A stretch of 30,489 nt of DNA from NCBI GenBank assembly GCA_003241215.1, contig QFOL01000016.1, positions 1 through 30,489 of the forward strand. The letters run 5' to 3'. Below, one piece after another: positions 329-30,161 of the stretch. A program made the translations under genes and the position numbers. This DNA comes from Agrobacterium fabrum (lineage in GTDB: Bacteria; Pseudomonadota; Alphaproteobacteria; Rhizobiales; Rhizobiaceae). Each line of letters starts with the position of its first letter. The stretch's first letter is position 1. Below the pieces are notes generated by a model. It was not told the DNA's origin and ran no database searches. It saw only the letters and a program-made list of their open reading frames with translations.

Positions 329-1276
329 ATGCCTGTTTATATCGGCAAGCGACTGCTGGTCGCGATCCCGACGCTTCTGATCATTTCCATCTTCGTTTTC
401 TCGCTGCAGAAACTTTTGCCGGGCGATCCGGTGCTTGCCATGGCGGGCGAGGAACGCGATCCCGCGACGATTGAATTCCTGCGCGAGAAATATCGCCTCA
501 ACGACCCCGTGCCGCTGCAATATCTCAACTGGCTGGGCGGCGTGGTGACGGGCGATTTCGGTATTTCGCTGCGCACCAACCAGCCGGTGCTGGAACTGAT
601 CGGCCAGAAGCTGCCGGTCACCATTCAGCTGGCTGTCATGGCGATGTTTTTTGCCATGGTCATCGGCATTCCCATCGGCATTCTGGCCGCCGTCAAGAAG
701 AATACATGGATCGACTATACGGCCAATATCGTCGCGCTTTCCGGCCTTTCGATCCCGAATTTCTGGCTCGGCATCATGCTGATCCTGCTGGTCTCGGTGA
801 AACTCGGCTGGCTGCCGGCATCCGGTTATGAATCGATCTTCGTCGACCCTGTCCGCTCCATCGAAACGATGATCATGCCGGCCTTCGTGCTGGGCAACGC
901 GCTTGCGGCGACGCTGATGCGCCATACCCGTTCGGCGATGGTGGCGGTTTTGAGTTCCGATTATATCCGCACCGCCCGCGCCAAGGGGCTTTCGCCGCGC
1001 GAGATCATCCTGTCGCATAGTTTCCGCAACGCGCTGCTGCCCGTCATCACGCTGCTGGCGCTGCTCTTCGGCGAACTGCTGGCCGGGGCGGTCCTGACGG
1101 AGCAGATTTTCACGATTCCCGGCTTCGGCAAGATGACGGTCGATGCGGTGTTCACCCGCGATTATGCGGTCGTGCAGGGCATCGTGCTCTGCACCGCCGT
1201 CGGTTTCATCCTCATGAACCTTCTGGCCGACATTGCCTATGTCCTGCTCAACCCCCGCCTCAGGGCGACGATCTGA
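329..1276 (+). CDS. Peptide-type ABC transporter permease (DppB/GsiC-like)
   Basis: This 315-residue inner-membrane protein has the DppB-family layout. A first membrane helix lies near residues 9-28, then a periplasmic segment with 'LPGDPV' and 'LREKYRLNDPVPLQYLNWL', and then five further hydrophobic helices. The cytoplasmic EAA loop that docks on the ATPase is visible around residues 212-238 ('RTARAKGLSPREIILSHSF', then 'RNALLPV'). The C-terminus 'DIAYVLLNPRLR' is typical for the family, and the length is normal. A G-rich ribosome-binding stretch precedes the ATG. It should pair with the DppC-like permease that starts 12 bases downstream. Family assignment is secure; the substrate (di/oligopeptide, glutathione or another compound) is not. 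Confidence 0.95.
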   Translation: MPVYIGKRLLVAIPTLLIISIFVFSLQKLLPGDPVLAMAGEERDPATIEFLREKYRLNDPVPLQYLNWLGGVVTGDFGISLRTNQPVLELIGQKLPVTIQLAVMAMFFAMVIGIPIGILAAVKKNTWIDYTANIVALSGLSIPNFWLGIMLILLVSVKLGWLPASGYESIFVDPVRSIETMIMPAFVLGNALAATLMRHTRSAMVAVLSSDYIRTARAKGLSPREIILSHSFRNALLPVITLLALLFGELLAGAVLTEQIFTIPGFGKMTVDAVFTRDYAVVQGIVLCTAVGFILMNLLADIAYVLLNPRLRATI

Positions 1277-1288
1277 GGCCCCGATATC

Positions 1289-2161
1289 ATGACCGTTCTC
1301 GATCAAAACCTCTCCGTAGCGGTAACGCGGCAGGAAAGCCGCGCCTGGAAGAAGATGAAGCGCAACAAATCGGCGCTTGTCGGCATGATCATCGTGCTGT
1401 TCTTCGCCGTCCTTGCCATCGCCGCGCCGATCCTGCCGATTGCCGACCCGGTTGCGACCAGTTGGTCGGCCATCCGCAAGGCGCCCTCGGCGGCCCACTG
1501 GCTCGGCACCGATGATCTCGGCCGCGACATTCTCTCGCGCATGATCTATGGCGCCCGCGCCTCGCTGATGGCCGGTGTCGTCTCGGTGATGATCGCCGTG
1601 GTCATCGGCGTGCCCTTCGGTCTCATCGCCGGTTATTTCGGCGGCTGGGTGGATATGGTCATCTCCCGCATCACCGAAGCGTTGCTCGCCATGCCCTTCC
1701 TCATCATGGCGATTGCGCTGGCCGCTTTCCTCGGCCCGAGCCTCACCAACGCGATGATCGCCATCGGCCTTTCCGCCATGCCGATTTTTGTGCGCTTGAC
1801 CCGCGGGCAGGTGCTGGCGGTCAAGATGGAGGATTATGTCGAGGGCGCGAGGTCCATCGGCCTCAACCACGTCGACATCATGACGCGTTACATCCTGCCG
1901 AATGTCTTTGCCCCCATCATCGTGCAGGCGACGCTGACGGTGGCGACCGCCATCATTGCGGAGGCGAGCCTCTCCTTCCTTGGCCTAGGCCAGCAGGCGC
2001 CTGCGCCCTCATGGGGTTCGATGCTGAACACCGCGAAGAATTTCCTCAGCCAGGCGCCGTGGATGACGATGTGGCCCGGCATCGCCATCTTCCTCGTCGT
2101 AATCGGTTTCAATCTTCTGGGCGACGGCCTGCGTGACGCGCTCGATCAGAGCGAAGCATGA
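1289..2161 (+). CDS. Peptide-type ABC transporter permease (DppC/GsiD-like)
   Basis: This 290-residue inner-membrane protein is the second permease of the importer. It has the DppC N-terminal features: a basic cytoplasmic 'KKMKRNKSALVG' stretch, membrane helix 1 near residues 30-50, and the family signature 'HWLGTDDLGRDILSRMIYGAR' near residues 70-90. The EAA loop lies around residues 185-205 ('EGARSIGLNHVDIMTRYILP'). The 'EASLSFLGLG' and 'PSWGSML' segments and the C-terminal 'GDGLRDALDQ' are also standard. Length is normal. It begins 12 bases after the first permease and ends 21 bases before the GGT-family gene, so the three are almost certainly co-transcribed. Confidence 0.95.
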   Translation: MTVLDQNLSVAVTRQESRAWKKMKRNKSALVGMIIVLFFAVLAIAAPILPIADPVATSWSAIRKAPSAAHWLGTDDLGRDILSRMIYGARASLMAGVVSVMIAVVIGVPFGLIAGYFGGWVDMVISRITEALLAMPFLIMAIALAAFLGPSLTNAMIAIGLSAMPIFVRLTRGQVLAVKMEDYVEGARSIGLNHVDIMTRYILPNVFAPIIVQATLTVATAIIAEASLSFLGLGQQAPAPSWGSMLNTAKNFLSQAPWMTMWPGIAIFLVVIGFNLLGDGLRDALDQSEA

Positions 2162-2182
2162 TTTTTCACAAGGAATATCGGA

Positions 2183-3967
2183 ATGACTGAATTCACCACA
2201 CGCCCAGAAATCCTTGGCACCTTCGGCGTCGTCACCTCAACGCACTGGATCGCATCGGCTGTTGGCATGGCGATCCTTGAAAAGGGAGGGAACGCCTTCG
2301 ACGCCGCCGTCGCCACCGGTTTCGTTCTGCAGATCGTGGAACCGCATCTCTGCGGCCCGGGCGGCGACATGCCCGCCGTATTCTATTCGAAAAAGACGGA
2401 CAAGGTCGAGGTCATCTGCGCACAGGGCCCGGCCCCGAGCGGGGCGACCATTGAACATTATACCTCGGAAGGGCTGAAGCTGATCCCCGGCGACGGGTTG
2501 CTTGCCACCGTCATTCCCGGCGCCTTCGATGGCTGGATGCTGATGCTGCGCGATTATGGCACGATGAGCGTGCGCGAGGTGCTGGAACCCGCCATCTATT
2601 ATGCCGAGCACGGGCACCCGACGCTGCCGCGCGTCTCCGCCACCATCAAGGGGCTGGCGGATTTCTTCGAGAAGGAATGGCCGACATCCCATGAGACATG
2701 GCTGCCGGGCGGTGCGGCACCCGAGCCCCACGCCAATTTCCGCAATCCGGTTCTGGCCGCGACCTATCAGCGTATCGTCACCGAAGCCGAAGCGCGCTCC
2801 GGCCGCGAAAACCAGATCGAGGCGGCGCGTGACGCCTTTTACCGGGGTTTCGTAGCGGAAGCCATCGACGGTTACGTGAGGACCGCGGAAGTCATGGATG
2901 CCAGCGGCGCACGGCACAAGGGCGTGCTGACGGCGCAGGATATGGCGGACTGGAGCGCGACCGTTGAAGCGCCGCAGACGCTCGATTATCACGACTGGAC
3001 GATTGCCAAGACGCCGGCCTGGGGGCAGGGTCCGGTTCTGCTGCAATCGCTCGCGCTTTTGAAGGGTTTCGACATTGCGGCCATGGACCCGTCCGGTCCC
3101 GATTTCATCCACACCATCGTTGAAGCCATGAAGCTCGCCTTTGCCGACCGCGAGGTCTATTACGGCGATCCGGAATTCGGCCAGATACCGACGGAATATC
3201 TTCTCTCCGAAGGTTATAATGCCGGACGCCGGGCGCTGATCGGCGGCGACGCCTCGCTGGAGCTGCGCCCCGGCACCGTCCCGGGTTACGAAAAGCAGGT
3301 GGACGCCACCATGGCGATGCTGGCCGAGATGAGCGGCAAGGGCACGGTCTACGAGCCGACCATGTCGCATCTGACGGAGAAGCGCGGTGATACGGTGCAT
3401 ATCGATGTCATCGACCGCTGGGGCAACATGGTTTCCACCACGCCGTCGGGCGGCTGGCTGCAATCCTCGCCCATCGTTCCGGGCCTCGGCTTTGCGCTCA
3501 ATTCCCGCGCCCAGATGTTCTGGCTGAAGGAGGGCCTGCCGACCTCGCTTGCGCCGGGCAAACGCCCGCGCACCACGCTGACGCCATCGCTTGCGCTGCA
3601 TCGGGGACGCCCTTCCATGGTTTTCGGCACGCCCGGCGGTGACCAGCAGGACCAGTGGCAGCTGCCTTTCTTCCTGCGTTATGCCCATCACGGCAAGAAC
3701 CTGCAGGCCGCCATCGACATGCCGCTGTTCCACACCGCGCATTTTCCCGGTTCGTTTTATCCGCGCACCAGTTCGCCGGGTGAAATCATGGTGGAAGGCG
3801 CGGTGGGTGAGACGACGCTCGATGAGCTTCGCCGCCGCGGCCACCGCGTCACGGTTGCCGATGCATGGTCGGTCGGGCGGCTTACCGCCGCGCGTCGCGA
3901 TGCGGACGGCCTGCTGCGCGCCGCCGCAACACCGCGGCTGATGCAGGCCTATGCGGTAGGGCGGTGA
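2183..3967 (+). CDS. Gamma-glutamyltransferase-family Ntn hydrolase, divergent type
   Basis: This 594-residue protein belongs to the GGT family, whose members self-cleave before a threonine that becomes the nucleophile. The N-terminal 'GGNAFDAAVATGFVLQIVEP' and 'GPGGDMPAVFYS' segments are the usual large-subunit motifs. The likely cleavage site is in 'GDTVHIDVIDRWGNMVS', before Thr404, giving subunits of about 403 and 191 residues. Two points are unusual. The classical substrate-binding 'D-x-R-E-x-AP' arginine is absent ('CAQGPAPSGAT' instead), and there is no signal peptide, so the enzyme should be cytosolic. It lies between the permeases and ATPase of a peptide-type importer, so it probably cleaves the imported ligand. 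Gamma-glutamyl peptides or glutathione are possible, but the lost arginine also fits other amide substrates, as in the oxamate amidohydrolase (HpxW) branch. An AAGGAA ribosome site supports the start. Confidence 0.88.
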   Translation: MTEFTTRPEILGTFGVVTSTHWIASAVGMAILEKGGNAFDAAVATGFVLQIVEPHLCGPGGDMPAVFYSKKTDKVEVICAQGPAPSGATIEHYTSEGLKLIPGDGLLATVIPGAFDGWMLMLRDYGTMSVREVLEPAIYYAEHGHPTLPRVSATIKGLADFFEKEWPTSHETWLPGGAAPEPHANFRNPVLAATYQRIVTEAEARSGRENQIEAARDAFYRGFVAEAIDGYVRTAEVMDASGARHKGVLTAQDMADWSATVEAPQTLDYHDWTIAKTPAWGQGPVLLQSLALLKGFDIAAMDPSGPDFIHTIVEAMKLAFADREVYYGDPEFGQIPTEYLLSEGYNAGRRALIGGDASLELRPGTVPGYEKQVDATMAMLAEMSGKGTVYEPTMSHLTEKRGDTVHIDVIDRWGNMVSTTPSGGWLQSSPIVPGLGFALNSRAQMFWLKEGLPTSLAPGKRPRTTLTPSLALHRGRPSMVFGTPGGDQQDQWQLPFFLRYAHHGKNLQAAIDMPLFHTAHFPGSFYPRTSSPGEIMVEGAVGETTLDELRRRGHRVTVADAWSVGRLTAARRDADGLLRAAATPRLMQAYAVGR

Positions 3968-3971
3968 CACC

Positions 3972-5783
<1,812 letters not shown>

Positions 5784-5821: not shown

Positions 5822-6631
5822 TTATGCGGGGTTCTTGGGCGGAACGCCGCGCAGGTGCTCCATGAGATAGGCATGGGTCGCGGCATTGGCGACGATCAGC
5901 GTACCGGTCTTTTCATAGAACTCCGGTCCGCGGCCCCACCAGTCGGTCACGATGCCGCCGGCCTCCTGCACCAGCAGAATGCCGGCTGCCGTGTCCACGA
6001 AGCCCGTTTCCTCGTAATAGCCGGTCAGCCGGCCGCAGGCGACGTAAGCGCAGGAATTTGCGGCGCTGCCGACGACGCGGACCGCGCCGATGGGCGCACG
6101 AATGGCGTCGAGGCGCTGATAGGCGCCGGGATAAAGCTGGAGATTGGGTGTGGGCAGGCCGGTGCCGACGCACATCAGGGCGACATCGGTGGTGGCATTG
6201 ACCCGCAGGCGCTCGCCGTTGAGATAGGCGCCGTCTCCCTTGATCGCGGTGAACATCTCGTCGGAAACGGGATTGTAGACCAGCCCGCAGATCGTTTCAT
6301 TGCCGCGGCGAAGCGCGATGGTGATGGTATAGTGCTGGCCGAAGAGGAAATTGGTGGTGCCGTCGATGGGGTCGACCAGCCAGCGGTGATCCTGATCCGC
6401 CCCTTCGACGGGCGCGAATTCCTCGCCGGTCAGTCCCCACGGATATTGCCCGAGCAGACGCTCGCGGATCAGTGTTTCGGAATCCCTGTCCGCATCGGAA
6501 ACGAAGTCTCCCGGTCCCTTGACGCCGATCTCTATCTCGCGGAAGCGCCTGAAATGGTCGAGCGTCAATGCGCCGGCGTCGCGGGCGGTGGCGACCATAT
6601 GGTCGAGAATGGTGCTGTAATTGACTGTCAT
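5822..6631 (-). CDS. Inositol-monophosphatase-family sugar phosphatase
   Basis: This 269-residue protein has the metal-dependent phosphatase fold of the IMPase/FBPase/CysQ superfamily. The first metal motif appears as 'GEEFAPVE', the central one as 'WLVDPIDGTTNF', and the C-terminal one as 'GFVDTAAGILLVQEAGG', where the usual Trp-Asp is Val-Asp with the metal-binding Asp kept. It is the last gene of a six-gene operon. Its ATG overlaps the stop of the phosphodiesterase gene by four bases (ATGA). In that context it should remove phosphate from the sugar or polyol phosphate released by the phosphodiesterase, in the cytosol. It need not be an inositol enzyme: AccG of the Ti-plasmid agrocinopine operon is also of this family and acts on a sugar phosphate. 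Family confident, substrate inferred. Confidence 0.9.
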   Translation of the reverse strand: MTVNYSTILDHMVATARDAGALTLDHFRRFREIEIGVKGPGDFVSDADRDSETLIRERLLGQYPWGLTGEEFAPVEGADQDHRWLVDPIDGTTNFLFGQHYTITIALRRGNETICGLVYNPVSDEMFTAIKGDGAYLNGERLRVNATTDVALMCVGTGLPTPNLQLYPGAYQRLDAIRAPIGAVRVVGSAANSCAYVACGRLTGYYEETGFVDTAAGILLVQEAGGIVTDWWGRGPEFYEKTGTLIVANAATHAYLMEHLRGVPPKNPA

Positions 6632-7464
6632 CGGCTGAAAACCTCGGCGAGCCCTTCCGGATCATCGGTGGTGATCTGGTCCACCTTAAGCCGCAGCAGG
6701 CGTTTCACCTGTTCTATGGATTGCGGCGTGACGCTGTTGATCGTCCAGGCATCGACCCGGCGACCGGCGGCGTGGATGGGGGCGATGATATCGATGCCCG
6801 CATCCTCGGCGGCAAGCACGATCTCGTAGGCGAGGTAGATCATGTCCGCATCGGGCGCGGTGGCAAGGGCGTCTTCGATGAAGCCCAGATAGTTTCCGCT
6901 TGTCTTCAGTGCGGCTAGCGTGCCGCGATGGCAGGGATCATAACCGGTGCGAAGGCCGGGGGCTGAGCCGGCCAGCGTGGCGATGGCGTCGAAATCACCA
7001 CCCGACAGGATCACCGACTTCGCCATGGGCGAAACGCTCGCCCCGAAACCGGCGACCACCTGCGGGGTAAGCGCCTGCCGGTCTTCCTTGAAATCGAGCT
7101 GGAGCAGGGCGTCGGGATGAATGGCGCCCTCGGCAAGCAGGGCGCAAAGGTCTTCGAGCAGCATGACCTTGGCATCGATGGGCTGGCCCGTATTGTCGCG
7201 CAGGTGAAGCTGGCGCAGCGTGGCTGCGGATGTATCGCGCACCCGGCCGGTACCGGTGGTCTCCCGCTCCAGCGTCCGGTCATGCAGGACGGCGCAGCCA
7301 TGGTCGGCATGGATGACGAGATCCACCTCGATGCTGGCGCCGAGCCGCATCGCCTCGATGATGCGCTCGCCCGTAAAGACCGGATCTTCGGCGCGGCGGC
7401 GGGCGCGATGCCATTTGAGCCACGTTCTGTGGCCGTCGCGGTCGATAAGGATCGGCTGGTTCAT
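6628..7464 (-). CDS. Glycerophosphodiester phosphodiesterase-family protein
   Basis: I place the start at the ATG at 7464 (278 residues), one base after the stop of the ATPase gene; the longer open frame would run deep into that gene and encodes no family sequence. The GDPD active-site pattern is present: an early His-Arg pair (His19-Arg20), then 'SIEVDLVIHADHGCAVLHDR' with the Glu/Asp metal ligands and the catalytic His, then 'TTGTG' and 'LLEDLCALL'. The usual 'HRG...PENT' start is degenerate ('WHRARRR...PVFTGER'). No signal peptide is seen, so it should hydrolyse an imported phosphodiester in the cytosol, giving an alcohol plus a sugar/polyol phosphate for the adjoining phosphatase. AccF (agrocinopine phosphodiesterase) is a family precedent. 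Confidence 0.88.
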   Translation of the reverse strand: MNQPILIDRDGHRTWLKWHRARRRAEDPVFTGERIIEAMRLGASIEVDLVIHADHGCAVLHDRTLERETTGTGRVRDTSAATLRQLHLRDNTGQPIDAKVMLLEDLCALLAEGAIHPDALLQLDFKEDRQALTPQVVAGFGASVSPMAKSVILSGGDFDAIATLAGSAPGLRTGYDPCHRGTLAALKTSGNYLGFIEDALATAPDADMIYLAYEIVLAAEDAGIDIIAPIHAAGRRVDAWTINSVTPQSIEQVKRLLRLKVDQITTDDPEGLAEVFSR

Positions 7465-7465
7465 G

Positions 7466-8500
7466 TCAGCTCCGATAGATTGGGCGGTTGTCGCGATAGG
7501 CCGTGACGGCACGAGGCGAAATCTGTACGCCCTGTCCCGCCTGGAACATATCCGGGTGAGCGACCATGGATTTGATCCTTGTGCCATCGGCAAGATCGAG
7601 GTCGACAAGCCCGTGGGTGCCATAATCCGTCACGCGATGCACATGTGCTTCCGGCGTTTCGGAAATCGTCAGATCGATGGCTTCCGGGCGAACGGCGAGA
7701 ATGGCCGGTCCGTCGGAGACGGGGAGCGGCAGGCTGAAGTCGGCGCGCATGAAGTTTCCGTCTGAAACCGCACCGTCTATCAGGTTCATGGTGCCGATGA
7801 AGCCGGCGACGAACGGGGTCTGCGGTTCGCGGTAGATGACGTTTGGCCGGTCGATCTGTTCGGTCTTGCCGTTCGCCATCACGACGATGCGGTCGGCCAT
7901 GGAAAGGGCCTCATCCTGACCGTGGGTGACGAACAGCGTGGTGATGCCGAGACGCTGCTGGATATCGCGCACCTCTTCCCGAAGCCGCTCGCGCAGATGC
8001 TGGTCGAGGCTGGCGAAGGGTTCGTCGAGCAACAGGATTTTCGGTTCGAGAACCAGCGAGCGGGCGAGCGCCACACGCTGCTGCTGGCCGCCGGAAAGCT
8101 GGCCGGTGGCGCGCTCGCCATAACCGGAAAGCCCGACGAGTTCGAGCACCGCCTCCACTTTCTCTCTGATGACGGCAGCCGGCATGCGGCGCAGCCTGAG
8201 GCCGAAAGCGAGGTTTTTGAAGACATTCATATGGCTCCAGAGCGCGTGGCTCTGAAACACCATGCCGGTCGGCCGTCGTTCCGGCGGCAGGTGGGTGACA
8301 TCTTCGCCATCGATGGTGATCTGCCCGCCCGTCGGCTGCTCGAAACCGCCGACCATGCGCAGCAGCGTCGACTTGCCCGAACCGGAGGGGCCGAGAAGGC
8401 AGACGAGTTCACCATCGGCAACATCGAGCGAGAAGCTGTCGACTGCCTTGGTGCCGCCGGTATAGGTTTTCGTGACCTGGCGGATATGAAGTACGGACAT
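7466..8500 (-). CDS. ABC transporter ATP-binding protein (PotA/UgpC/FbpC-like)
   Basis: This 344-residue single ATPase has Walker A 'GPSGSGKST' (37-45), a Q-loop 'MVFQSHALWSHMNVFKNLAF', signature 'LSGGQQQRVALARSL' (about 135-149), Walker B 'ILLLDEPFASLD' (155-166) and H-loop 'FVTHGQDEA'. About 110 C-terminal residues form the TOBE-type regulatory region found in the iron/polyamine/phosphonate/glycerol-3-phosphate group of importers ('ILAVRPEAIDLTISETPEA'). It starts 9 bases after the upstream permease stop and ends one base before the phosphodiesterase ATG, so it is within the operon. It drives uptake with the two permeases encoded upstream. Confidence 0.95.
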   Translation of the reverse strand: MSVLHIRQVTKTYTGGTKAVDSFSLDVADGELVCLLGPSGSGKSTLLRMVGGFEQPTGGQITIDGEDVTHLPPERRPTGMVFQSHALWSHMNVFKNLAFGLRLRRMPAAVIREKVEAVLELVGLSGYGERATGQLSGGQQQRVALARSLVLEPKILLLDEPFASLDQHLRERLREEVRDIQQRLGITTLFVTHGQDEALSMADRIVVMANGKTEQIDRPNVIYREPQTPFVAGFIGTMNLIDGAVSDGNFMRADFSLPLPVSDGPAILAVRPEAIDLTISETPEAHVHRVTDYGTHGLVDLDLADGTRIKSMVAHPDMFQAGQGVQISPRAVTAYRDNRPIYRS

Positions 8501-8509
8501 GATGATTTC

Positions 8510-9334
8510 CTAACCGCCGAAACCGCGGGCAAATGCGCCGCCGCCGATGACGCGGCGGGCGAACATGAGGGCAATGAAGGACGGCACCCAGAGCAGGACG
8601 GACAGGACCGCGCCATATTGAATGACCATCTGGTTGTTGATGTAGCTGATCATCAGCACCGGCATGGTGCGGATGGCCGGCGCGCCGATGAGCCATGCAC
8701 CTTCGGTCTCGTAAAAAGTGCCGACGAAGCTCAGCAACACCGCGGCGGCGATGGTCGGTCCCGCCTGCGGCAGGGTAATCGACCAGAAGACCCGGAGCGG
8801 GCTGGCGCCGACATCGCGGGCCGCCTCTTCCATGCGCCGGTCGACGGCCTGAAATGCCGCCACGGGGATCCAGATCATGAACATCAGCGTGCCGACGAGC
8901 TGGATGAGAACGACACCCCAGAAGGTGCCGATGAGGTTGAGCTGCAGGAAAATGGCGGCGATCGCCACCAGAAGCCCGAATTTCGGGAAGGCATGGCCGG
9001 CAAGGAAGGAGAAGAACAGCAGGTTGCGGCCAGGAAAGCTCATGCGCGCAAAGGCATAGGCGGCGGGAAGGCAGATCAGCGCCGAAAGCAGCGTCACCAC
9101 CGTTGTCAGCCGCAGGCTCAGCATCAGCGCGTTCCACACGTCGGCGCGTCCCAGTGTCTGGCCCCAGAAGCGGAAACCGAACTGCTGGGGAATGACATTG
9201 GGAAAACGCCAGACCTCGGTGAATGCCCAGGTGCCGACGACAAGCAGCGGCCCGACGATGGCGACGGTGAGAAGGACGGCGAAGAAGATGCCGGGCCAGT
9301 CCATGCGGGTTCGCGCCCGCGTCAGCGTCGTCAT
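8510..9334 (-). CDS. ABC transporter permease (second, PotC/PhnV-like)
   Basis: This 274-residue inner-membrane protein has about six predicted helices and the docking EAA loop 'EEAARDVGASPLRVFWSITL'. The N-terminus 'RMDWPGIFFAVLLTVAIVGP' is a typical first helix. It follows the first permease with a one-base gap and precedes the ATPase by 9 bases, so translation is probably coupled. The group fits binding-protein-dependent systems for iron, putrescine/spermidine, 2-aminoethylphosphonate or sugar phosphates. The sequence alone does not say which. Downstream phosphodiesterase and phosphatase genes favour a phosphorylated organic ligand. Confidence 0.93.
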   Translation of the reverse strand: MTTLTRARTRMDWPGIFFAVLLTVAIVGPLLVVGTWAFTEVWRFPNVIPQQFGFRFWGQTLGRADVWNALMLSLRLTTVVTLLSALICLPAAYAFARMSFPGRNLLFFSFLAGHAFPKFGLLVAIAAIFLQLNLIGTFWGVVLIQLVGTLMFMIWIPVAAFQAVDRRMEEAARDVGASPLRVFWSITLPQAGPTIAAAVLLSFVGTFYETEGAWLIGAPAIRTMPVLMISYINNQMVIQYGAVLSVLLWVPSFIALMFARRVIGGGAFARGFGG

Positions 9335-9335
9335 G

Positions 9336-10220
9336 TCATTTCCCCTGGTTGCGCGCGACCGAACGCACGTAGAACAGGCCGAAAGCGATGCAGAAACCGA
9401 AAGCGATGACGGCCTGGGTCATGGCGCCGATGGGATCCTGCACTTCGCGCAGCGTGCGCTGCATGAAGGGGCCGAGCATTTCGGGAGAGGCAGGGCCCAA
9501 AAGATAGGGCAGGGTGAAGGAGGAAAAAATGCCGAGCACCGAAAAGGAAAGCGCCACGAGGATGGAATTGGAAATGCGCGGCAAGATGATGTGCCAGAAG
9601 ACCTGAAGCGCATTGGCCCCAACATCGCGAGCCGCCTCCACGGACTGGTTGGCGACACTGCCGAGCCCCGCGAGAAGGATGAGCACGGTCAGCGGAATAT
9701 TGTCCCAGACAAGACCGATGACCGGCCCCCAGGGCGTGAGATAGGGCGTGCGGATTTTCGGCAGGTCGACCGCATTGAGCAATATGTCCACCATGCCGTT
9801 CGGCCCGAGAACGCGGATGAAGGCGAAAGCGAGGATGATGGAGGGCACGAACATCGGAAAGATGGCGAGCGCCTGCACATAGGCCGGAAGACGACCTTGC
9901 GAAAAGCGAAGGTAAAGCGCGATCGGCAGGCAGATTACCAGCAGGAGGGCGGCGCAGACCATTGTCGTCCACAACGTCACGGCAAGATTGTCGAGGCTGT
10001 AGCGGTCCGAGAAGAAGAAGCCGTAGCTCGAAAGATCGAAACTCGTCTCGCCGCTCGCCCCAGTGCGCCAGACAGTGCGGCCGATGGCGTTGATGGCAGG
10101 CCAGATGACCAGCCAGATCATCAGGAACACGGGAATGGCGACGAGCAGGAGGCCGATGGGCCTCCTGCCTGCCGTATTGTCGATGAGCGGGCGAACCGCT
10201 CCTTCCGCAACCTCGGTCAC
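9336..10220 (-). CDS. ABC transporter permease (first, PotB/PhnU-like)
   Basis: This 294-residue inner-membrane protein has an N-terminal helix near residues 22-45, a periplasmic loop ('TGASGETSFDLSSYGFFFSD'), several further helices and the EAA loop 'EAARDVGANALQVFWHIILP'. The ATG overlaps the stop of the binding-protein gene by four bases (ATGA) and the gene ends one base before the next permease, a signature of tight co-translation. It forms the channel with its neighbour. Length and architecture are normal for the family. Confidence 0.93.
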   Translation of the reverse strand: MTEVAEGAVRPLIDNTAGRRPIGLLLVAIPVFLMIWLVIWPAINAIGRTVWRTGASGETSFDLSSYGFFFSDRYSLDNLAVTLWTTMVCAALLLVICLPIALYLRFSQGRLPAYVQALAIFPMFVPSIILAFAFIRVLGPNGMVDILLNAVDLPKIRTPYLTPWGPVIGLVWDNIPLTVLILLAGLGSVANQSVEAARDVGANALQVFWHIILPRISNSILVALSFSVLGIFSSFTLPYLLGPASPEMLGPFMQRTLREVQDPIGAMTQAVIAFGFCIAFGLFYVRSVARNQGK

Positions 10221-11368
10221 GACTTGCGGTCGACGTTGGGAGCGACGTTGCGGTACCAGCCGTCATTGATGGCGGTTTCCCATTTGCCGCCCGGGAAGGT
10301 CGGAATGGTCTGCGGGATGATGTCGGCGAAGCGCTTGCGCAGCTCGGCCGGCACATAGTCCCAGGAAACGCCGGGGAAACCGCCGAGTTCGGTGAGGATG
10401 GCGCCCTGGATTTCTTCGGACAGCACAAAATTCGCAAGCTTCAGGGCGGCGTCGCGATTGGCGCCGTTGGCCAGCACGACAGCGCGCGAGAAATTGCCGC
10501 AAAGCGCCAGATCCTGAAGCTGAACGAGGCCGGTTTCTTTCGGCAGAACGCCCTGGTCGATGGCCTGAAGCACCTGATCGGACCAGACCGGGGTCATGGT
10601 GACCACACCCTGGGAGAGGAGCTGCAGGGACTGGGTGTTGCCGGAGGAGTAGGCGCCCTTGTCATAAAGCGACGGCGCGATGTCCTTGAGCAGTTCCCAT
10701 GCCTTGCCGAGAGCCTTGTCGCCGGCTTCCTGGGTGTAGTTGTCGACCGTGAAGGCCTTGGGGTCGAGGCCGTTCGCCTGATGGATGGCGCGGCGGACGA
10801 AGTTGCCGCCCGAACCGCCCTTGTCGGGACGGTTATAAACGAACTGGCCGGGATTGGCCTTGATCCAGCTGACGAGCTGATCCCAGTTCTTCGGCGCATC
10901 CGCCGGCTTCAGCTTGCTGGTGTCATAGGCGAGCAGAACCTGGCTGCCGCGATAGGGCAGGCTGTATTCGCTCTGGATGGCCAGCGGGTTGACGCGCGAA
11001 TAATTGGAAAGGCCGGCTTTCGCCATGTTCACATAGATGCCGGCATCGATGGCGCCGGCGGGCAGCAGCGGATCGGCGGTTTCGAAATAATCGGCCTGCG
11101 GATCGGTGCCCGTCTTTTTGGCGGCAATGGCGCGCTCGCCGATGGCGATAATGCCCGCGCCGTCGCCGGCATCGACGAGATTGAGCTTAAGCCCGGGATT
11201 GGCGGCCTCAAAGGCGGGCTTGATCGTATTGGACCAGAAATCGAGGATATTGGTATCCGAGCTGGTGTACCAGTCGATCGTGCCCGGCGCGGCGAAGCTC
11301 ATGCGGGGTGCAAGGGCAAGACCGGCGGCGGCGCCTGCGGCGGACATCATAAAGGTGCGGCGTTTCAT
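10217..11368 (-). CDS. Family-1 type ABC transporter substrate-binding protein
   Basis: This 383-residue protein starts with 'MKRRTFMMSAAGAAAGLALA', a twin-arginine-like signal with a likely cleavage after 'RMSFA', so the mature protein is periplasmic. The first mature strand 'GTIDWYTSSD' and later 'SLPYRGSQVLLAYDTSKL' and 'NWDQLVSWIKANPGQFVY' match iron/polyamine/2-aminoethylphosphonate-type binding proteins. A GGAG ribosome site lies about eight bases before the ATG. It is the first gene of the six-gene operon and determines ligand choice. Given the phosphodiesterase and phosphatase at the other end, a phosphodiester such as a glycerophospho-sugar/polyol or opine-like compound is the simplest guess. 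Spermidine/putrescine or phosphonate binding cannot be excluded from sequence. Confidence 0.92.
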   Translation of the reverse strand: MKRRTFMMSAAGAAAGLALAPRMSFAAPGTIDWYTSSDTNILDFWSNTIKPAFEAANPGLKLNLVDAGDGAGIIAIGERAIAAKKTGTDPQADYFETADPLLPAGAIDAGIYVNMAKAGLSNYSRVNPLAIQSEYSLPYRGSQVLLAYDTSKLKPADAPKNWDQLVSWIKANPGQFVYNRPDKGGSGGNFVRRAIHQANGLDPKAFTVDNYTQEAGDKALGKAWELLKDIAPSLYDKGAYSSGNTQSLQLLSQGVVTMTPVWSDQVLQAIDQGVLPKETGLVQLQDLALCGNFSRAVVLANGANRDAALKLANFVLSEEIQGAILTELGGFPGVSWDYVPAELRKRFADIIPQTIPTFPGGKWETAINDGWYRNVAPNVDRKS

Positions 11369-11505
11369 CTATGTCTCCGATGTTTTCGGGCGCGAGTGGA
11401 ACTGCTGAGCGCTGACCCTTCGAAAGGGGGCGGGAAAGACGCTGACCGGTCGTTGCACAGCCGTGCATTTTCTGGACGGGTCGGCGGCGGTTCTAATGTC
11501 TTTCC

Positions 11506-11523
11506 ATAACGCTTTCGTGACAG
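11506..11523 (-). promoter_or_regulatory. Possible Pho box upstream of the phosphodiester operon
   Basis: Read on the minus strand the sequence is CTGTCAC-GAAA-GCGTTAT. The first half matches the PhoB half-site CTGTCAT at 6 of 7 bases, the spacer is the usual 4 bases, and the second half matches at only 4 of 7. About nine bases further downstream is an A/T-rich TTAGAA that could be a -10 element, which is how PhoB-dependent promoters are arranged. It is 138 bases upstream of the binding-protein start. Only one half is good, so this is tentative. Confidence 0.35.
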
Positions 11524-11667: not shown

Positions 11668-11994
11668 ATGCGCAAGATGATTCTAACCGCCGGACTGATT
11701 TTCGGCGCCCTGTTCGGCACCGGTGCGAACGCCATGCCTGTCGGCCAACCGTCCGCACCTTCGGTATCCCACATCCAGAAGGTGGATTATGCCTGCGGAC
11801 GTGGTTTTCATCTCACACCACGCGGCTATTGCCGTCCGAACGGACCGCGTTACGAGCGCGGCTGGGACCGGCGCGACCGCTGGGAAAACCGCCGGGAATG
11901 GCGTGAACGCCAGGCCAGAAGGGAATGGCGCGAATGGCGCGACCGCCGGGATTATCGCGACTGGCGGGACCGTCGCGATTATTATCGGTACTGA
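11668..11994 (+). CDS. Small secreted GCG_CRPN-type protein with Arg/Trp/Asp-rich repeats
   Basis: This 108-residue protein starts with a signal peptide ('MRKMILTAGLIFGALFGTGANA'). The mature part has one cysteine-flanked element, 'YACGRGFHLTPRGYCRPN', which fits the GCG_CRPN prefix seen on many short rhizobial proteins. The rest is a low-complexity tail built of R, W, D, E and Y ('REWRERQARREWREWRDRRD', then 'YRDWRDRRDYYRY'). The two cysteines could form a disulfide in the periplasm. AAGGAGGG sits nine bases before the ATG and a perfect terminator follows, so it is a single-gene transcript with strong translation signals. The molecular role is unknown; a cell-envelope or surface role is only a guess from export and composition. 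Confidence 0.85.
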   Translation: MRKMILTAGLIFGALFGTGANAMPVGQPSAPSVSHIQKVDYACGRGFHLTPRGYCRPNGPRYERGWDRRDRWENRREWRERQARREWREWRDRRDYRDWRDRRDYYRY

Positions 11995-12000
11995 CCGGGC

Positions 12001-17138: not shown

Positions 17139-18089
17139 TCAGTAGTTCACGGTCACGACCACGGTGTCGGAGTAATTTCCCGGCGCCGGCGTATTCTGCG
17201 CCGGTACGCGTCCATAAACGGTCAGTGTCTGCAGGCTGCCTGTTCCGGTGCCGGTGGCAATCTGGCCGGCGGCGCTTCCCCAAACATTGGTGCGGTTCAC
17301 GTCGCGATAGAGGCCGTAGACTATCGATGCGCCGCCCTGCACCATCTGGCGCGCGGCGGGCGGGCTGTTGCTCAGCCCGCCATTCAGCGCAACGCTGTAG
17401 TTCAGGCTGGTGGTGCAGGTGAGGTTGATGGCGCCTGTCGCATCGACCGCCGTGTTGAGCACGCCGTGGCTGCCGAAATCGATGTTCTGGGCGGAGATGA
17501 TACAGGTCGGCGCCACCGCGGCCGTCACGTTGAACGGGACCTGGGTGGGGTTCTGGGTCACGGAAGAGCAGCTCGGTGCGAGCAACGTATAGCTCGTATA
17601 GGTGAAGTTGGTCTCCGCGCCGGCAAAGCTGGAGAGATAAAGGCCGCGCGCCGCCGAGGCCTGGCCGGCGTTGATGCGGCCATAGACGGTGCGGCTGGTG
17701 GTGTTTATCAAAAGCGGCAGCGCCATGTCGATCGGCGGAGGCGATCCGAGCGCGGGCTGGGTGACCGATCCCCAGGAGGTGGTCCGCGCGGGGTTTTGAT
17801 AGAGCTGGTAATTGAGAATGTTGCTGCCCTGAAGCATGCGGCGGATGCCGCCCGACTGTCCGCCGCTTCCGGCATTGATATTGGGGCAGATGCGGATGGA
17901 AAGCGCCAGCGACAGGGGGTTGGAACAGGTGACGGACAGGGTTGCCGTGGTATCCACGGCGCTGCCGCCCGCGAGATTGACGAAGCCGAAATTCATGTCC
18001 GACATGTTGAAGGTGCAGCTTTGCGCCAGCGCCGGAGAGGCGCAGAGAAAGGCGGCGATGGCGAGGGCGGCGCGGGTCCGGACCTTCAT
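17139..18089 (-). CDS. Two-domain spore-coat-U-type pilus protein, likely tip adhesin (CsuE-like)
   Basis: The start is set at the ATG at 18089 (316 residues), which overlaps the usher stop by four bases (ATGA) and opens a clean signal peptide ('MKVRTRAALAIAAFLCASPA', cut after 'ALAQ'). The longer frame adds 25 residues inside the usher gene. Two SCPU-type domains follow: domain 1 begins 'SCTFNMSDMNFGFVNLAGGS' and domain 2 'CIISAQNIDFGSHGV'. The C-terminus 'TVYGRVPAQNTPAPGNYSDT', then 'VVVTVNY', mirrors the end of the single-domain pilin at 21231. In archaic Csu pili the double-domain subunit sits at the tip and contacts surfaces, and its gene is last in the operon, as here. Secreted through the usher encoded just upstream. 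Confidence 0.9.
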   Translation of the reverse strand: MKVRTRAALAIAAFLCASPALAQSCTFNMSDMNFGFVNLAGGSAVDTTATLSVTCSNPLSLALSIRICPNINAGSGGQSGGIRRMLQGSNILNYQLYQNPARTTSWGSVTQPALGSPPPIDMALPLLINTTSRTVYGRINAGQASAARGLYLSSFAGAETNFTYTSYTLLAPSCSSVTQNPTQVPFNVTAAVAPTCIISAQNIDFGSHGVLNTAVDATGAINLTCTTSLNYSVALNGGLSNSPPAARQMVQGGASIVYGLYRDVNRTNVWGSAAGQIATGTGTGSLQTLTVYGRVPAQNTPAPGNYSDTVVVTVNY

Positions 18090-20524
18090 TGAACGCTCCT
18101 GCATATGGTTTCGAGAGTTGCGCGTGTATTGTCGGCGGAAGGCACGGTGATCTCGGCCTCGCACGCGCCTTTCGTCGGTTGCGTGACGTGGAGCCGGTGC
18201 GTTTTGTCGATATTGTCGAGATAGGCCTGCCCGTCATAACCGACGATGAAATCGCGCTTGCCGTCGATTGTGCCTGTCGATCCGGTTTCGATGAATTCGC
18301 CGGCCTCGTTCTTCAGCGTCACCAGCGCCACCTGTCCCTCGGTCTCCACCTTGAAATTGACGACGGCTCCCGCGCGTTCCGTCGGTGTAACAGTCTGTTT
18401 CGTGCGGTCGATGCGGGCGTCGACGGGCAGATTGCCCGGATCGAGACTGATGTTGTTGACGTCGTAGGAGCGCAGGTTCGGAAGCAATATCTTGCCGCGG
18501 CGGTTGGTCTGGCCGATGGGGCGGTTTTCCAGCAGGATATCGACGCCCGGCGCGCCCGCATCCACCACCGCGAAAGCGTCGTCGATCCGGTTGCCGACAA
18601 AGACATCGCCGCCGGCGAGCGCTATCGATCCTTCGATCTGGGCATAGGCCTGCGTCGTGCGGTTGAATTGATCGACGCCGGCCGAAACGCGGGCGGCGCT
18701 GCCGCGATAACTGCCGGAAACGGAGGCGATATCGTTGCCGCCGACCGCGCCGCGCAGACGCCAGCCGTAACTTCCCTCGGCCTGTTCTTCGGATTTTCCG
18801 ACCTCGGCCGTCAGCGAATATCCATCGGCATCCGACGACATGCCGGCCGAACCGGAGACGCCGCCGCCGAACGACCAGGAGAGGCCGGCAAAGATGCCGT
18901 AGGAATCGCTGTCCTCAAGATCCTTGTAGGCGGTGACGAAGATATTGCCGTTTTCTCCGAAAGGCCGCGTGGCGGAAAGACCGAGCAGCCGGGATCGCCG
19001 CTCATCGAAGGTCTCGAGCTCGGTGTAGGAAAAATTGAGGCTGGTCTGATCAAAGCCGAGTTGGGTGGAAACGGAAATCTGGTCCAGGGCGCGCGGCGGC
19101 CGCGCGCTGAGCAGGCCGGATATCGTCCTTATCTCCGACGTATCGGCGGAGACGGACGCCATGTCGTGATAGTCGCCGAATGTCCGCTGCGACCGCGCGT
19201 GAAATTTTACGCCGAGCAATTCGGCCTCGACACTGGCCGAAAGCTGATAACCGCTTTCCCCGCCAAAACGGCTGGTTGCGCCTGAAACCGCCGCCAATCC
19301 ATGGGCTCCGAGGGTGAAGACGCCGCCGAAGCCGACATTGTAGAATTCCTCGCCGCCTTCCGCATGGCCTTCCAGTGTCAGCCCGTCCGAAAATCCGTAA
19401 CGCAACGTTGCCGAGCCCAGCGGTCTGTCATCATAATCGAAGGACGAGGTTCCGTAGTTGCGCCGCGCGAAGCCAAGCTCTGCGGAAAAATCGAGGAGAC
19501 CCTGCGCCAGCAGGTCCGGGGAGGTATAAAACGGCGTTTCGGATACGGTTTCGCGGCCCAGCGCATCCCGCACCACCAGTCTCGCATTGCCGGCGCCGCT
19601 GATGACGGGGAGATTGGTAATCGAGAACGGTCCTTCCGGAACATCCTGCGACAGGCGGCGGATATTGTTGACATAGACGTCGACCGTGGAGGGCACGGCC
19701 GCCGAGCCGGCGAATTCCGGCATCGGCATGGTGACGATATCCGGGCGCAGATCGAAGTTGCGGCGGATCTGCAGGCCGCCGAGCCGGGTCGGGCGCGTCC
19801 AGCTCAGTCCGCCGGTGATCAGGTCGCCGGCGCGGTAGGTCGTCAGCGTTTCCTCATTCGAATAGCTCCAGGTGGTATCGAGACGCTGTGTATCGAATTC
19901 CGACAGGCGCGACGTGCTGAGAACCTGCGATGAGGAAAGCACGCCGAGCGGACCGAAGGCGCGGCTTTCGAGGAGGGCGGAGACGCCGTTGAAATCGGCG
20001 ATATCCGACCAATTGCTGCCGCCGGAGGAGCCATAGACCGTGTAATTCACCAGACCTCCAAAATCGCTCGTGGCCTTTTCCTCTGTCGCTTCGTCCTCTT
20101 CCTGCGGCGGCCTGCCGGAGGCGTCGATCACCTTGCTCGCCCGCGCCGCCATCGGCAGGGTGAAATGCACGGACTGGGTGCCTTCATCGTAACGCGCCAC
20201 CACGTCAGGCAGTCGGGACACATCGATCCAGCCATCTGCGCCGACGGCGCTTTCAACCGGGGATATCCCGATATTCTTCAGCTGCTCCGGCTCGATGAGA
20301 AGCGATCCGGCGTCGTTTTGACGAAAAGTGGCGATCAGGTCCGTCGGAACATCGTTGATGTAGACTTCGAGCTGCAATGGCCCGGCCTCTCCCGGGACAA
20401 TAGAAGTCGGTTGCGCCGCAGGAGGGATATCCTGCGCCACGGAAATACTGCCCGATGAAATGACCGTCAGAGCGGCAATCGTCAAAACGGCAAGGTCAGC
20501 CGCCCGAGACGCGCGCCGTCGCAT
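18086..20524 (-). CDS. Outer-membrane usher of an archaic chaperone-usher pilus (CsuD-like)
   Basis: This 812-residue protein has an N-terminal signal segment and the usher layout. A periplasmic N-domain ('GPLQLEVYINDVPTDLIATF', 'LKNIGI') comes first, then a long beta-barrel region rich in aromatic and glycine residues, with the plug-type segment near 'PSTVDVYVNNIRRLSQDVPE' and 'GPFSITNLPVISGAGNARLV'. Two C-terminal periplasmic domains follow ('GVDILLENRPIGQTNRRGKI' and 'GEFIETGSTGTIDGKRDFIV'). Its start overlaps the chaperone gene by 29 bases, so translation is probably coupled. It forms the outer-membrane pore that assembles the fibre. Size is close to the CsuD family norm and no disruption is seen. 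Confidence 0.93.
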   Translation of the reverse strand: MRRRASRAADLAVLTIAALTVISSGSISVAQDIPPAAQPTSIVPGEAGPLQLEVYINDVPTDLIATFRQNDAGSLLIEPEQLKNIGISPVESAVGADGWIDVSRLPDVVARYDEGTQSVHFTLPMAARASKVIDASGRPPQEEDEATEEKATSDFGGLVNYTVYGSSGGSNWSDIADFNGVSALLESRAFGPLGVLSSSQVLSTSRLSEFDTQRLDTTWSYSNEETLTTYRAGDLITGGLSWTRPTRLGGLQIRRNFDLRPDIVTMPMPEFAGSAAVPSTVDVYVNNIRRLSQDVPEGPFSITNLPVISGAGNARLVVRDALGRETVSETPFYTSPDLLAQGLLDFSAELGFARRNYGTSSFDYDDRPLGSATLRYGFSDGLTLEGHAEGGEEFYNVGFGGVFTLGAHGLAAVSGATSRFGGESGYQLSASVEAELLGVKFHARSQRTFGDYHDMASVSADTSEIRTISGLLSARPPRALDQISVSTQLGFDQTSLNFSYTELETFDERRSRLLGLSATRPFGENGNIFVTAYKDLEDSDSYGIFAGLSWSFGGGVSGSAGMSSDADGYSLTAEVGKSEEQAEGSYGWRLRGAVGGNDIASVSGSYRGSAARVSAGVDQFNRTTQAYAQIEGSIALAGGDVFVGNRIDDAFAVVDAGAPGVDILLENRPIGQTNRRGKILLPNLRSYDVNNISLDPGNLPVDARIDRTKQTVTPTERAGAVVNFKVETEGQVALVTLKNEAGEFIETGSTGTIDGKRDFIVGYDGQAYLDNIDKTHRLHVTQPTKGACEAEITVPSADNTRATLETICRSVQ

Positions 20525-21230: not shown

Positions 21231-21728
21231 TCAGTAGTTGAGCGTGGCCGTCACCGTATCGGTATAGACGCCGACCGCGGGTGTCGTCTGGGCAGGTACG
21301 CGCCCATAGACAGTGAAAGTCTGCGGTGCGCCGGTGCCCGTGCCCGTTTGCCGGTCCGTTCCCACGGTGTTGCCCCACACCGTGCTGTGCGCCGCAGTCG
21401 TATAAAGCGAATAGGAAATGGTCGCGCCCGCCGGCGATGTCATCAGACGGTTGGCGACCGTCGCCCCGGAGCCGGCGCCGGCGCTGAGGCCGAGGCTGAA
21501 GGGCGTGCTTGCCGTGCATTGCACGACAATGTCGCTGGTCGCGTCGATATTGCCGCCGATGACGCCATTGGTGCCGAAATTGAGATTACCGGCGGAGTTG
21601 ATCTGGCACGCCGCCTGAATGGTGATCTGGACGTTGAAATTCGTCGTGGCGACCTGCGCGATCCCCGATGCCGGTGTGAGAACCAGTGCCGCAAACGATA
21701 ATAGATAGCCTGATGCTGCAAACTTCAT
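21231..21728 (-). CDS. Spore-coat-U-type major pilin (CsuA/B-like)
   Basis: This 165-residue protein has a signal peptide (about 24 residues, ending 'SGIAQ') followed by one SCPU domain: 'FNVQITIQAACQINSAGNLN', 'FGTNGVIGGNIDATSDIVVQ' and a second Cys in 'VQCTAS', giving one likely disulfide. The end 'TVYGRVPAQTTPAVGVYTDT', then 'VTATLNY', is the usual C-terminal strand. GGGGAGG lies just before the ATG. As the first gene of the operon it is probably the main fibre subunit. No separate CsuA or CsuB minor subunits are present, so this is a reduced four-gene version of the csu layout. Confidence 0.92.
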   Translation of the reverse strand: MKFAASGYLLSFAALVLTPASGIAQVATTNFNVQITIQAACQINSAGNLNFGTNGVIGGNIDATSDIVVQCTASTPFSLGLSAGAGSGATVANRLMTSPAGATISYSLYTTAAHSTVWGNTVGTDRQTGTGTGAPQTFTVYGRVPAQTTPAVGVYTDTVTATLNY

Positions 21729-29037: not shown

Positions 29038-30117
29038 TCATCGCGCTAGGCGGCGCAATGCAAGGGGATCCCATATGTCGTCGAGCGGGCCTTCCAGCGC
29101 GGTTCGCGGCGGAATGAGCTTGGGTTCGATAATGGTGACTTCGGGCTCGGTCCGGTTCTCTTCCAGGAGTTCGAAACCCTTGTTGAGCATCTGTGCTATA
29201 TCGGGCTTGATCATGTAGACCGGGAAAGGAAGGAACGAGGCGAACGGGTCGTAGTCAAAACAGCCGACAACGATGTCGCCAAACGCCTCGCCGTCATGAC
29301 GCCCCATGAAACGAAGCAGCCCTTCGAAATTGATCGACGAATTGACGAAGAAACAGCGGGGCAGGCGGCCCTTGCGCTCAAAGAAACGTTCGAAAGCCAG
29401 TTCCGTCATGCGCGGTGAATAACCGGTGATCTCGATATCGTCTCCGCTTTCAACCCCGAAATAGGAAGCCTTGGCGGCGTGGAAGCCGTCGATACGTGCG
29501 CGGCTGGCGTGGTCGTCATGCCCCCCGAACAGGACGACGTCGTCAGGACCGAGAGGCCCGCCTTTTACCGCATGGGCAAGGATGGCGGACGTCAGTATTT
29601 CCGCGCCCTGCCTGTTGTCGGAAATAACCGAGGGCACAAATTTGCCGGGAAGGTCGATATTGACATGCGGCAGTGCGGCGCGGGCGCAGACCTGGTGCAC
29701 GCCGTCGGGATCGGTCGCGCCGGCAATGAAGAGGGCGTCGATCGAATAGGCGATCAGGGTCTCCACGGTGCGGCGTTCCTCCTCGGGATCGCGCCGCCCC
29801 GAAACGACCATGGGCGACAGGCCGCGTTTGCGGGCCTGCCCTTCGAATGTCTGCGCCATCGATGAAAAGAACCGGTTGTCATAAATGGGCACAAGAAGCC
29901 CAACGAGACCGGATTTCGAACTCCTCAGGCCACGGGCCTGCAGGTTGGCGGTGTAGCGATGCGCCTTGGCGAGCGAGAGAATCTTGTCGGCAGTCTCCTC
30001 CGAAATCCGTCGCTTGCGCCACGATCCGTTCAACACGGCGCTTACCGTCGAGGCCGATGCACCCGACAATATCGACAAGTCATAAATAGTGGCTTTCTTG
30101 GAACTTATGCCCGTCAC
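29038..30117 (-). CDS. LacI-family transcriptional regulator
   Basis: The start is set at the GTG at 30117 (359 residues), because GGGGAG lies six to seven bases before it; a TTG at 30141 would place that ribosome site inside the gene. Residues 9-60 form the LacI DNA-binding head: 'ATIYDLSILSGASASTVSAV' then 'LNGSWRKRRISEETADKILS' and hinge 'LQARGLRSSKSGLVGLLVP'. The rest is a periplasmic-binding-protein-like sensor ('SVISDNRQGAEILTSAILAH', 'VVLFGGHDDHASRARIDGFH'). It is divergent from a sugar-type binding-protein gene, and two operator-like repeats lie between them. It probably represses that transport operon and itself, released by the sugar or a derivative. Confidence 0.92.
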   Translation of the reverse strand: MTGISSKKATIYDLSILSGASASTVSAVLNGSWRKRRISEETADKILSLAKAHRYTANLQARGLRSSKSGLVGLLVPIYDNRFFSSMAQTFEGQARKRGLSPMVVSGRRDPEEERRTVETLIAYSIDALFIAGATDPDGVHQVCARAALPHVNIDLPGKFVPSVISDNRQGAEILTSAILAHAVKGGPLGPDDVVLFGGHDDHASRARIDGFHAAKASYFGVESGDDIEITGYSPRMTELAFERFFERKGRLPRCFFVNSSINFEGLLRFMGRHDGEAFGDIVVGCFDYDPFASFLPFPVYMIKPDIAQMLNKGFELLEENRTEPEVTIIEPKLIPPRTALEGPLDDIWDPLALRRLAR

Positions 30118-30161
30118 TGTGATCTCCCCAACTGATTCCAATTATTAGAGCACGCGTCCCC

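Follow-up and report, generated by a model that had tools for sequence, protein, structure and literature searches.

What do six closely packed genes of Agrobacterium fabrum, four for an ATP-binding cassette (ABC) importer and two for hydrolases of phosphate esters, take up and break down? The genes lie on the minus strand, at positions 5822–11368, of a 30,489-nucleotide stretch of contig QFOL01000016.1 that was analysed as a whole and is called the window in the following, and they encode a solute-binding protein (SBP), two permeases, an ATPase, a phosphodiesterase of the GDPD family and a phosphatase of the IMPase family. It is probable that they constitute one catabolic unit that imports a sugar or polyol phosphodiester and hydrolyses it in two steps. 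The exported SBP would capture a small compound of this class, for example a glycerophospho-polyol like glycerophosphoinositol, or a sugar-phosphate-sugar compound, the two permeases and the ATPase would bring it in intact, the cytoplasmic GDPD would cut the diester, and the IMPase-type enzyme would then dephosphorylate the sugar or polyol monophosphate to the free sugar or polyol and inorganic phosphate (Pi). A LacI-family repressor is predicted to act at the palindrome TGCAC-N4-GTGCA, and phosphate control may operate in other promoters of the family.

The packing of the genes (Table 1) is consistent with a single transcript. The genes for SBP and permease 1 overlap by 4 bases, as do those for GDPD and IMPase, and the remaining gaps are 1 base between the two permease genes, 9 bases between permease 2 and the ATPase, and 1 base between the ATPase and the GDPD. 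The start of the GDPD was set at 7464, matching relatives of 278 residues; a longer open reading frame (ORF) to 7623 would run into the ATPase gene. An earlier note on this DNA had described the same six genes with gaps of 1–9 bases or 4-base overlaps, and both content and packing are borne out by the ORF coordinates and by Pfam. The SBP scores 74.2 bits with SBP_bac_8 (cut-off 27), the ATPase 124.7 bits with ABC_tran (cut-off 25) and it also matches TOBE_2, the phosphodiesterase is a member of the GDPD family (PF03009, 55.4 bits, cut-off 23.6), and the phosphatase, with its metal-site motifs present, is a member of the IMPase family (Inositol_P, PF00459, 167.5 bits, cut-off 27). By a simple hydropathy count, which is not a signal-peptide predictor, the SBP starts with MKRR followed by a hydrophobic stretch, and the first 45 residues of the GDPD and of the IMPase contain nothing of this kind, in agreement with the statement of the note that the two enzymes lack signal peptides. 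The note had also called the operon chromosomal, which is not proven, as close relatives are located on contigs of about 2.0–2.4 Mb but one on a plasmid of 316 kb. The window GDPD is 99% identical to a GDPD of A. leguminum.

Table 1. Positions in the window of the six genes and of the conserved sites upstream of them.
Feature	Position	Strand	Basis or remark
SBP, SBP_bac_8 family, 383 aa, predicted exported	10217..11368	-	Pfam and hydropathy; relatives known
ABC permease 1, GTG start, 294 aa, 6 transmembrane-like segments	9336..10220	-	Pfam BPD_transp_1
ABC permease 2, 274 aa, 6 transmembrane-like segments	8510..9334	-	Pfam BPD_transp_1
ABC ATPase with TOBE domain, 344 aa; Walker A, LSGG and Walker B all present	7466..8500	-	Pfam ABC_tran and TOBE_2, motifs
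GDPD-family cytoplasmic phosphodiesterase, distinct KWHR subfamily, 278 aa	6628..7464	-	Pfam, alignment, tree, model
IMPase-family cytoplasmic phosphatase, 269 aa; motifs GEE, DPIDGTTN and VDTAAG	5822..6631	-	Pfam, motifs
Palindrome TGCACAGCCGTGCA (plus strand), predicted LacI-family operator, 86–99 bp upstream of SBP start	11454..11467	.	exact copy
Conserved block CTGTCACGAAAGCGTTAT, first half PHO-box-like, about 55 bp upstream of the operator	11506..11523	-	4/14 mismatches to whole consensus

The array is more than a chance arrangement, being conserved across several genera. The GTDB genome set was scanned with an alignment of 14 GDPDs, which gave 230 confirmed places, and the best 80 were kept as GDPD-centred loci, in which importer genes were counted as present at 50% identity or more. 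All four importer genes precede the GDPD gene in 74/80 loci, and L007 has three of them, the contig ending there. The four importer genes, the GDPD and the IMPase are found together in 70/80 loci, with the IMPase gene adjacent on the same strand in 47, adjacent and convergent in 13 and convergent within 7 kb in 10; in L007 it is adjacent to the GDPD gene too. The importer loci without IMPase (L051, L059, L077 and L085) all end less than 900 bp from the GDPD gene, and no importer was found at this threshold in 5/80 loci, namely L014, L022, L045, L049, where the 5' side is cut, and L083. Most hosts belong to Agrobacterium, to Rhizobium and its kin, or to Devosia; among the few others are Pannonibacter, a Pseudorhodobacter metagenome-assembled genome (MAG) and a Gordonia, and copies on plasmids are found in Rhizobium, Ketogulonicigenium, Alloyangia and Roseinatronobacter. 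The occurrence is patchy: of 61 genomes, one from Agrobacterium and the relatives sampled around it, 15 have the GDPD at E 1e-30, the weakest with 38% identity. The SBP gene of A. pusense (L010:5098-6245) matches as two overlapping pieces of 97 and 87% identity, suggesting a frameshift or an assembly error, and in Rhizobium sp. T1473 only a partial ATPase gene is located just before the GDPD (L006:7463-8843) and the locus gives no match to the IMPase, as if the operon were decaying.

The catalytic residues of the GDPD are intact, with H19, R20, E46, D48, H61 and K126 invariant in 36/36 aligned GDPD sequences, and a KWHR signature marks the subfamily. The best Foldseek matches of its structure model (pLDDT 95.0) are GDPD crystal structures, some with bound glycerol-3-phosphate. 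The window-type GDPDs form a clade (support 100/100, 25 rows) separate from the two acc GDPDs, UgpQ and the other sampled GDPDs; R. leguminosarum GDPDa falls inside this clade, and its counterpart in R. etli also has KWHR. The earlier note had set the enzyme beside AccF of the agrocinopine operon and beside UgpQ of E. coli, and it is of neither type. Its identity to AccF of the plasmid pOC-Colt5.8 is 27% over 84 residues (E 7e-4) and to AccF' 42% over 50 residues (E 4e-5), where the acc names on the ACC region were assigned in this analysis from gene order and from the description in the accessible part of PMC6546132. The short alignments and the separate clade rule it out as an orthologue of AccF, and an E-value of 0.07 and the same separate clade set it apart from UgpQ; the E. 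coli-type GDPD model PRK09454 gives 42.8 bits, below the cut-off of 264.

The IMPase appears nearer to SuhB of E. coli, with 36% identity over 258 residues, than to AccG, with 31% over 198 residues, the two proteins with which the note had proposed to align it, and orthology with AccG seems unlikely by sequence. The 22 sampled operon IMPases, one of them from a Paracoccaceae MAG, form one clade (support 100/100), and a grouping of AccG with this clade is not rejected by the approximately unbiased (AU) test (p 0.24). The identity of the IMPase drops to 37% in Ketogulonicigenium and 35% in Alloyangia, against 67 and 61% for the SBP, and the Rhodobacterales IMPases are set apart on a long branch in the tree. 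A separate recruitment of these enzymes was considered and set aside, as the AU test is compatible with one clade (p 0.37), and only divergence is claimed. In Roseinatronobacter a CehA/McbA-type PHP hydrolase follows the GDPD in place of the IMPase. A second hydrolase is kept beside the GDPD even where it has diverged.

This retained phosphatase is the strongest hint to the substrate class, indicating that the product of the GDPD would be a phosphorylated sugar or polyol that is not directly usable by central metabolism, so that the sugar or polyol side of the diester should keep the phosphate. Glycerol-3-phosphate, by comparison, enters metabolism without a phosphatase. The operon might instead be an Ugp-like scavenger of glycerophosphocholine, -ethanolamine and -glycerol, in which the GDPD would release glycerol-3-phosphate and an alcohol as sources of phosphate and carbon and the IMPase would be secondary. 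The E. coli UgpBAEC-UgpQ cluster is similar in that SBP, two permeases, ATPase and GDPD are encoded in one cluster, but it has no phosphatase gene, and there is no clear pairwise similarity either between the GDPDs or between the SBPs (E 0.44 to UgpB, the shared fold being seen by structural comparison). The ATPase also falls short of the UgpC subfamily model (310.9 of 432), and the IMPase is kept in most loci though glycerol-3-phosphate would need no phosphatase. A scavenger of this kind is the most serious of the alternatives but still rather improbable.

The proposed uptake of a sugar or polyol phosphodiester, with its two hydrolytic steps, is also consistent with what precedes the operon. 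Upstream regions were compared for 71 loci and the window (n=72), 4/76 SBP genes being left out as their start codon was not matched by the script, and these regions are related and not independent. The palindrome TGCAC-N4-GTGCA upstream of the SBP gene is exact in 37/72 regions (shuffle mean 0.05) and present with at most one mismatch in 43/72 (shuffle mean 1.6); at the latter stringency it is found in 28/30 regions with a nearby LacI-family gene of one sequence cluster versus 15/42 of the others. The LacI domain was confirmed by Pfam in the five tested members of the cluster, and LacI-type NCBIfam models score the one tested. The case for an operator rests on conservation, because the count in the window alone is not significant (two sites with at most one mismatch, and as many in 30/100 shuffles). 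In three Agrobacterium-group genomes the closest LacI homologue (43–44% identity) is located elsewhere, near genes for an IMPase and an importer with a UgpC-like ATPase, and in L143 near a metallophosphoesterase gene too. A one-mismatch copy of the palindrome precedes that LacI-linked IMPase in 3/3 of these genomes, and a stop codon places it outside the IMPase frame in two of them, the start codon in L143 not being settled. It may be guessed that this LacI homologue acts in trans on the operon of the window.

A second conserved block, TGTCATGAAAGCGTTA, is present with at most two mismatches in 29/72 regions, from both Rhizobiaceae and Devosia, and starts 54–55 bp before the palindrome in 27/29 (45 bp in L031, and after the palindrome in L076). 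Its first half together with the preceding C equals CTGTCAT, the repeat in the rhizobial PHO-box consensus as given in the accessible part of PMC3131613. PHO boxes with at most two mismatches were found in 10/72 regions (shuffle mean 0.1), 7 of which have no LacI-type site, and there is no canonical PHO box in the window itself, where the best candidate has 4/14 mismatches. A gene for a Na/Pi cotransporter adjoins the IMPase gene in some Devosia versions, and one is also found in the acc region of the opine-catabolic plasmid. In Rhizobium rhizogenes (L147:8799-10427) a Na/Pi cotransporter with 62% identity to that of the pOC-Colt5.8 acc region adjoins LacI and IMPase genes. In two rhizobial genomes a thiamine gene set led by a thiamine pyrophosphate riboswitch is followed by the GDPD-IMPase pair (L022:4193-4304 and 8869; L014:4171-4282 and 8905), with thiC, thiO, thiG and thiE identified in L022 only; a thiamine link was set aside since an operator-type site, exact in L022 and with one mismatch in L014, separates thiE from the GDPD. 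An Rfam scan of the window gave nothing at the gathering threshold.

LacI-type control, together with sugar- or inositol-like neighbours, suggests a carbohydrate-like ligand. Sugar or inositol-type genes adjoin several relatives of the operon, and L050 has IolE-like and IolG-like proteins, both below the cut-off. Glycerophosphoinositol, which is common in eukaryotes according to the accessible part of PMC3725514, is a reasonable first candidate, and nothing in the analysis singles it out.

Several observations weigh against a phosphodiester unit under LacI control. The neighbouring sugar genes vary among lineages, and no one substrate is named by them. No LacI gene adjoins the operon of the window, the LacI-type protein encoded at 29038–30141 is not an orthologue of the operon-linked LacI (best 29% identity over 126 residues), and the palindrome is tied to LacI by association only. 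The GDPD and IMPase genes are found without importer genes in L014, L022 and L045, whose genomes have no SBP match at E 1e-15, and the actinobacterium Gordonia lacunae encodes a GDPD of the same subfamily with 57–58% identity (L083:9001-9810), where neither importer nor IMPase was found in the locus and no SBP match in the genome at E 1e-15; the enzymes can thus persist without the window-type importer. The importer is also found without the GDPD. R. leguminosarum and R. johnstonii have a related importer (SBP 65–66% identical) with a convergent IMPase and no adjacent GDPD, beside ribokinase and further genes, and on the pAt plasmid of A. vitis an SBP with 49% identity is encoded near sugar isomerase, Gfo/Idh/MocA and ROK genes, with neither GDPD nor IMPase within 8 kb. 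The importer therefore need not carry a diester, and importers of its class may serve for related, sugar-like compounds other than diesters.

These importers without a GDPD favour an alternative in which a sugar or polyol phosphomonoester, or a plain sugar, is carried, the IMPase or no enzyme of the operon acts on it, and the GDPD is otherwise used or broadens the range; many oligosaccharide binders among the best structural neighbours of the SBP point in the same direction. The GDPD gene, however, follows importer genes in 75/80 loci, a number that is biased as the loci were picked by their GDPD, and in the window it overlaps or abuts its neighbours. This alternative is considered improbable, and less credible than the Ugp-like scavenger. 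In R. leguminosarum relatives (L155 and L153) the window-type importer and IMPase genes adjoin genes for ribokinase, TenA, BtpA/SgcQ and a glutamine amidotransferase, and in L153 also a phosphotriesterase, which may hint at a different ligand there.

By its anatomy the operon resembles the agrocinopine system, where AccA-G, as described in the accessible part of PMC4526662, comprise an ABC importer followed by a cytoplasmic phosphodiesterase and a phosphatase that are encoded together. The ACC region of pOC-Colt5.8 is grouped in the same way and, like some relatives of the window operon, has a gene for a Na/Pi cotransporter close by. The acc SBP is of the SBP_bac_5 family whereas that of the window is SBP_bac_8, and the two are unrelated, as BLASTP aligns 18 residues with E 0.58. 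There are two ATPases and Opp/Dpp-type permeases in acc but one ATPase gene among the six in the window, and the acc region carries DeoR-type regulator genes where the window operon has a predicted LacI-type site. The earlier note had read the operon as an unrelated-transporter version of the acc logic, which fits, several such versions being found, and the operon appears to work like acc without being a member of it. The special link to agrocinopines or other opines that the note drew is not supported. The GDPD groups apart from the AccF-type enzymes, and the range of the operon covers Devosia, Rhizobiaceae and Rhodobacterales; no gall formers are known as such among its hosts Devosia, Ketogulonicigenium and Alloyangia. 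A true opine system, importing and degrading agrocinopines or another sugar phosphodiester made in tumours, would agree with the functional parallel to AccA-G, the same kinds of enzymes and the Agrobacterium host, but an opine role of the window operon is unlikely, and such a dedicated system highly so.

By sequence the importer is similar to those for polyamines, phosphonates and ferric iron, and none of these named families reaches its cut-off. The scores in bits, with cut-offs, are 29.3 of 395.3 for PhnS, 265.4 of 499.15 for PhnT, 42.3 of 283.45 for PhnU, 63.2 of 358.7 for PhnV, 340 of 457.7 for PhnT2, 312.1 of 482 for PotA, 59.7 of 348 for PotB and 55.2 of 326 for PotC. Among the top Foldseek matches of the AlphaFold model of the SBP (pLDDT 81.3) are 4r6y and several ferric-binding proteins, proteins of the latter kind also come up in a profile search at E 0.003–0.007, and some sources label the SBP as spermidine/putrescine-type. 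Structural comparison also places the SBP near binders of sugars, glycerophosphocholine and dinucleotides, and no single ligand class was picked out by VIA-align or Foldseek. Of the iron/polyamine/phosphonate-type importer in the earlier note the sequence likeness stands, while the family assignment does not. An iron or polyamine identity is weak, the model cut-offs being missed, and an importer of iron, polyamines or 2-aminoethylphosphonate that merely shares its operon with two unrelated enzymes is the least credible alternative of all, in spite of these family and fold matches, as the two enzymes have been kept next to the importer across several genera.

GDPD and IMPase genes are combined with five importer arrangements in total. 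The acc region has a peptide-type importer, which also occurs, there with a KWHR-type GDPD, in R. leguminosarum and R. etli; the same two rhizobia and D. riboflavina have a sugar-type importer with LacI, and D. riboflavina has a Ugp-like importer as well; the fourth is the SBP_bac_8 importer of A. larrymoorei and the fifth the window type. The CUT1-type clusters of R. leguminosarum (L005), R. etli p42b (L156) and D. riboflavina (L144) have importer, GDPD, LacI-family regulator and IMPase together, but the importer is of sugar type and the GDPD, of which L144 has two, is an ordinary one. The palindrome is found as an exact copy in L144, whose LacI-type protein is 43% identical to the one beside a Neorhizobium window-type operon. 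In the A. larrymoorei plasmid cluster (L088) the importer (SBP 29% identical over 295 residues), GDPD and IMPase genes are also in a row, but the order is SBP-ATPase-permease-permease, the GDPD has a DUF4996 part and a ROK-type gene is located upstream. Adjacency of GDPD and IMPase genes within 3 kb was seen in at least 4 places among 69 GDPD matches in 37 genomes of the order, where 0.63 would be expected (Poisson 0.004); the count was made by eye after the pattern had been seen, around a centre genome chosen for having the operon, and a pair about 5 kb apart in G022 was left out. In Xanthomonas, the accessible part of PMC12807533 describes the AvrBs2-XanT-XanP system, in which the sugar phosphodiester xanthosan serves as food after uptake and hydrolysis. 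It differs in using an outer-membrane TonB-dependent transporter and a 2H-phosphoesterase, and its GDPD-like protein makes the compound and does not break it. No paper on a window-type operon was found by title or start of abstract, which is no proof of its absence from print.

Elsewhere in the window, peptide-type ABC importer genes including one for a gamma-glutamyltranspeptidase are located at 329–5783 on the plus strand, convergent with the six-gene operon and perhaps for uptake of gamma-glutamyl compounds, and these neighbours of the operon, gamma-glutamyltransferase and peptide importer, are shared by the loci L007-L011 and L042. Between a TctC gene and the operon, at 11669–11995 on the plus strand, a short protein rich in charged RDRRDWR-type repeats is encoded, which is probably secreted. 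The genes at 18086–20524 and 21231–21728 on the minus strand, for an outer-membrane usher and for a protein with a spore-coat-U domain, likely belong to a chaperone-usher fimbrial cluster.

A wider proposal, which we put forward tentatively and with limited confidence, is that sugar and polyol phosphodiesters may be a common and overlooked food in soil and on plants, for which Alphaproteobacteria would carry modular operons to import, cut and dephosphorylate them, with parts freely swapped under LacI and PhoB-type control, and acc may be a specialised offshoot of this older nutritional logic. The reading of the six genes as a phosphodiester unit also fits the report of xanthosan, a sugar phosphodiester, as a dedicated nutrient (PMC12807533). 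If that reading is right, the acc logic would extend beyond Ti plasmids, as one of the five importer arrangements that a general pathway for sugars and polyols bridged by phosphate can take, and the window-type operon would be a testable model outside tumours, with a predicted operator and regulator family by which its inducer might be found.

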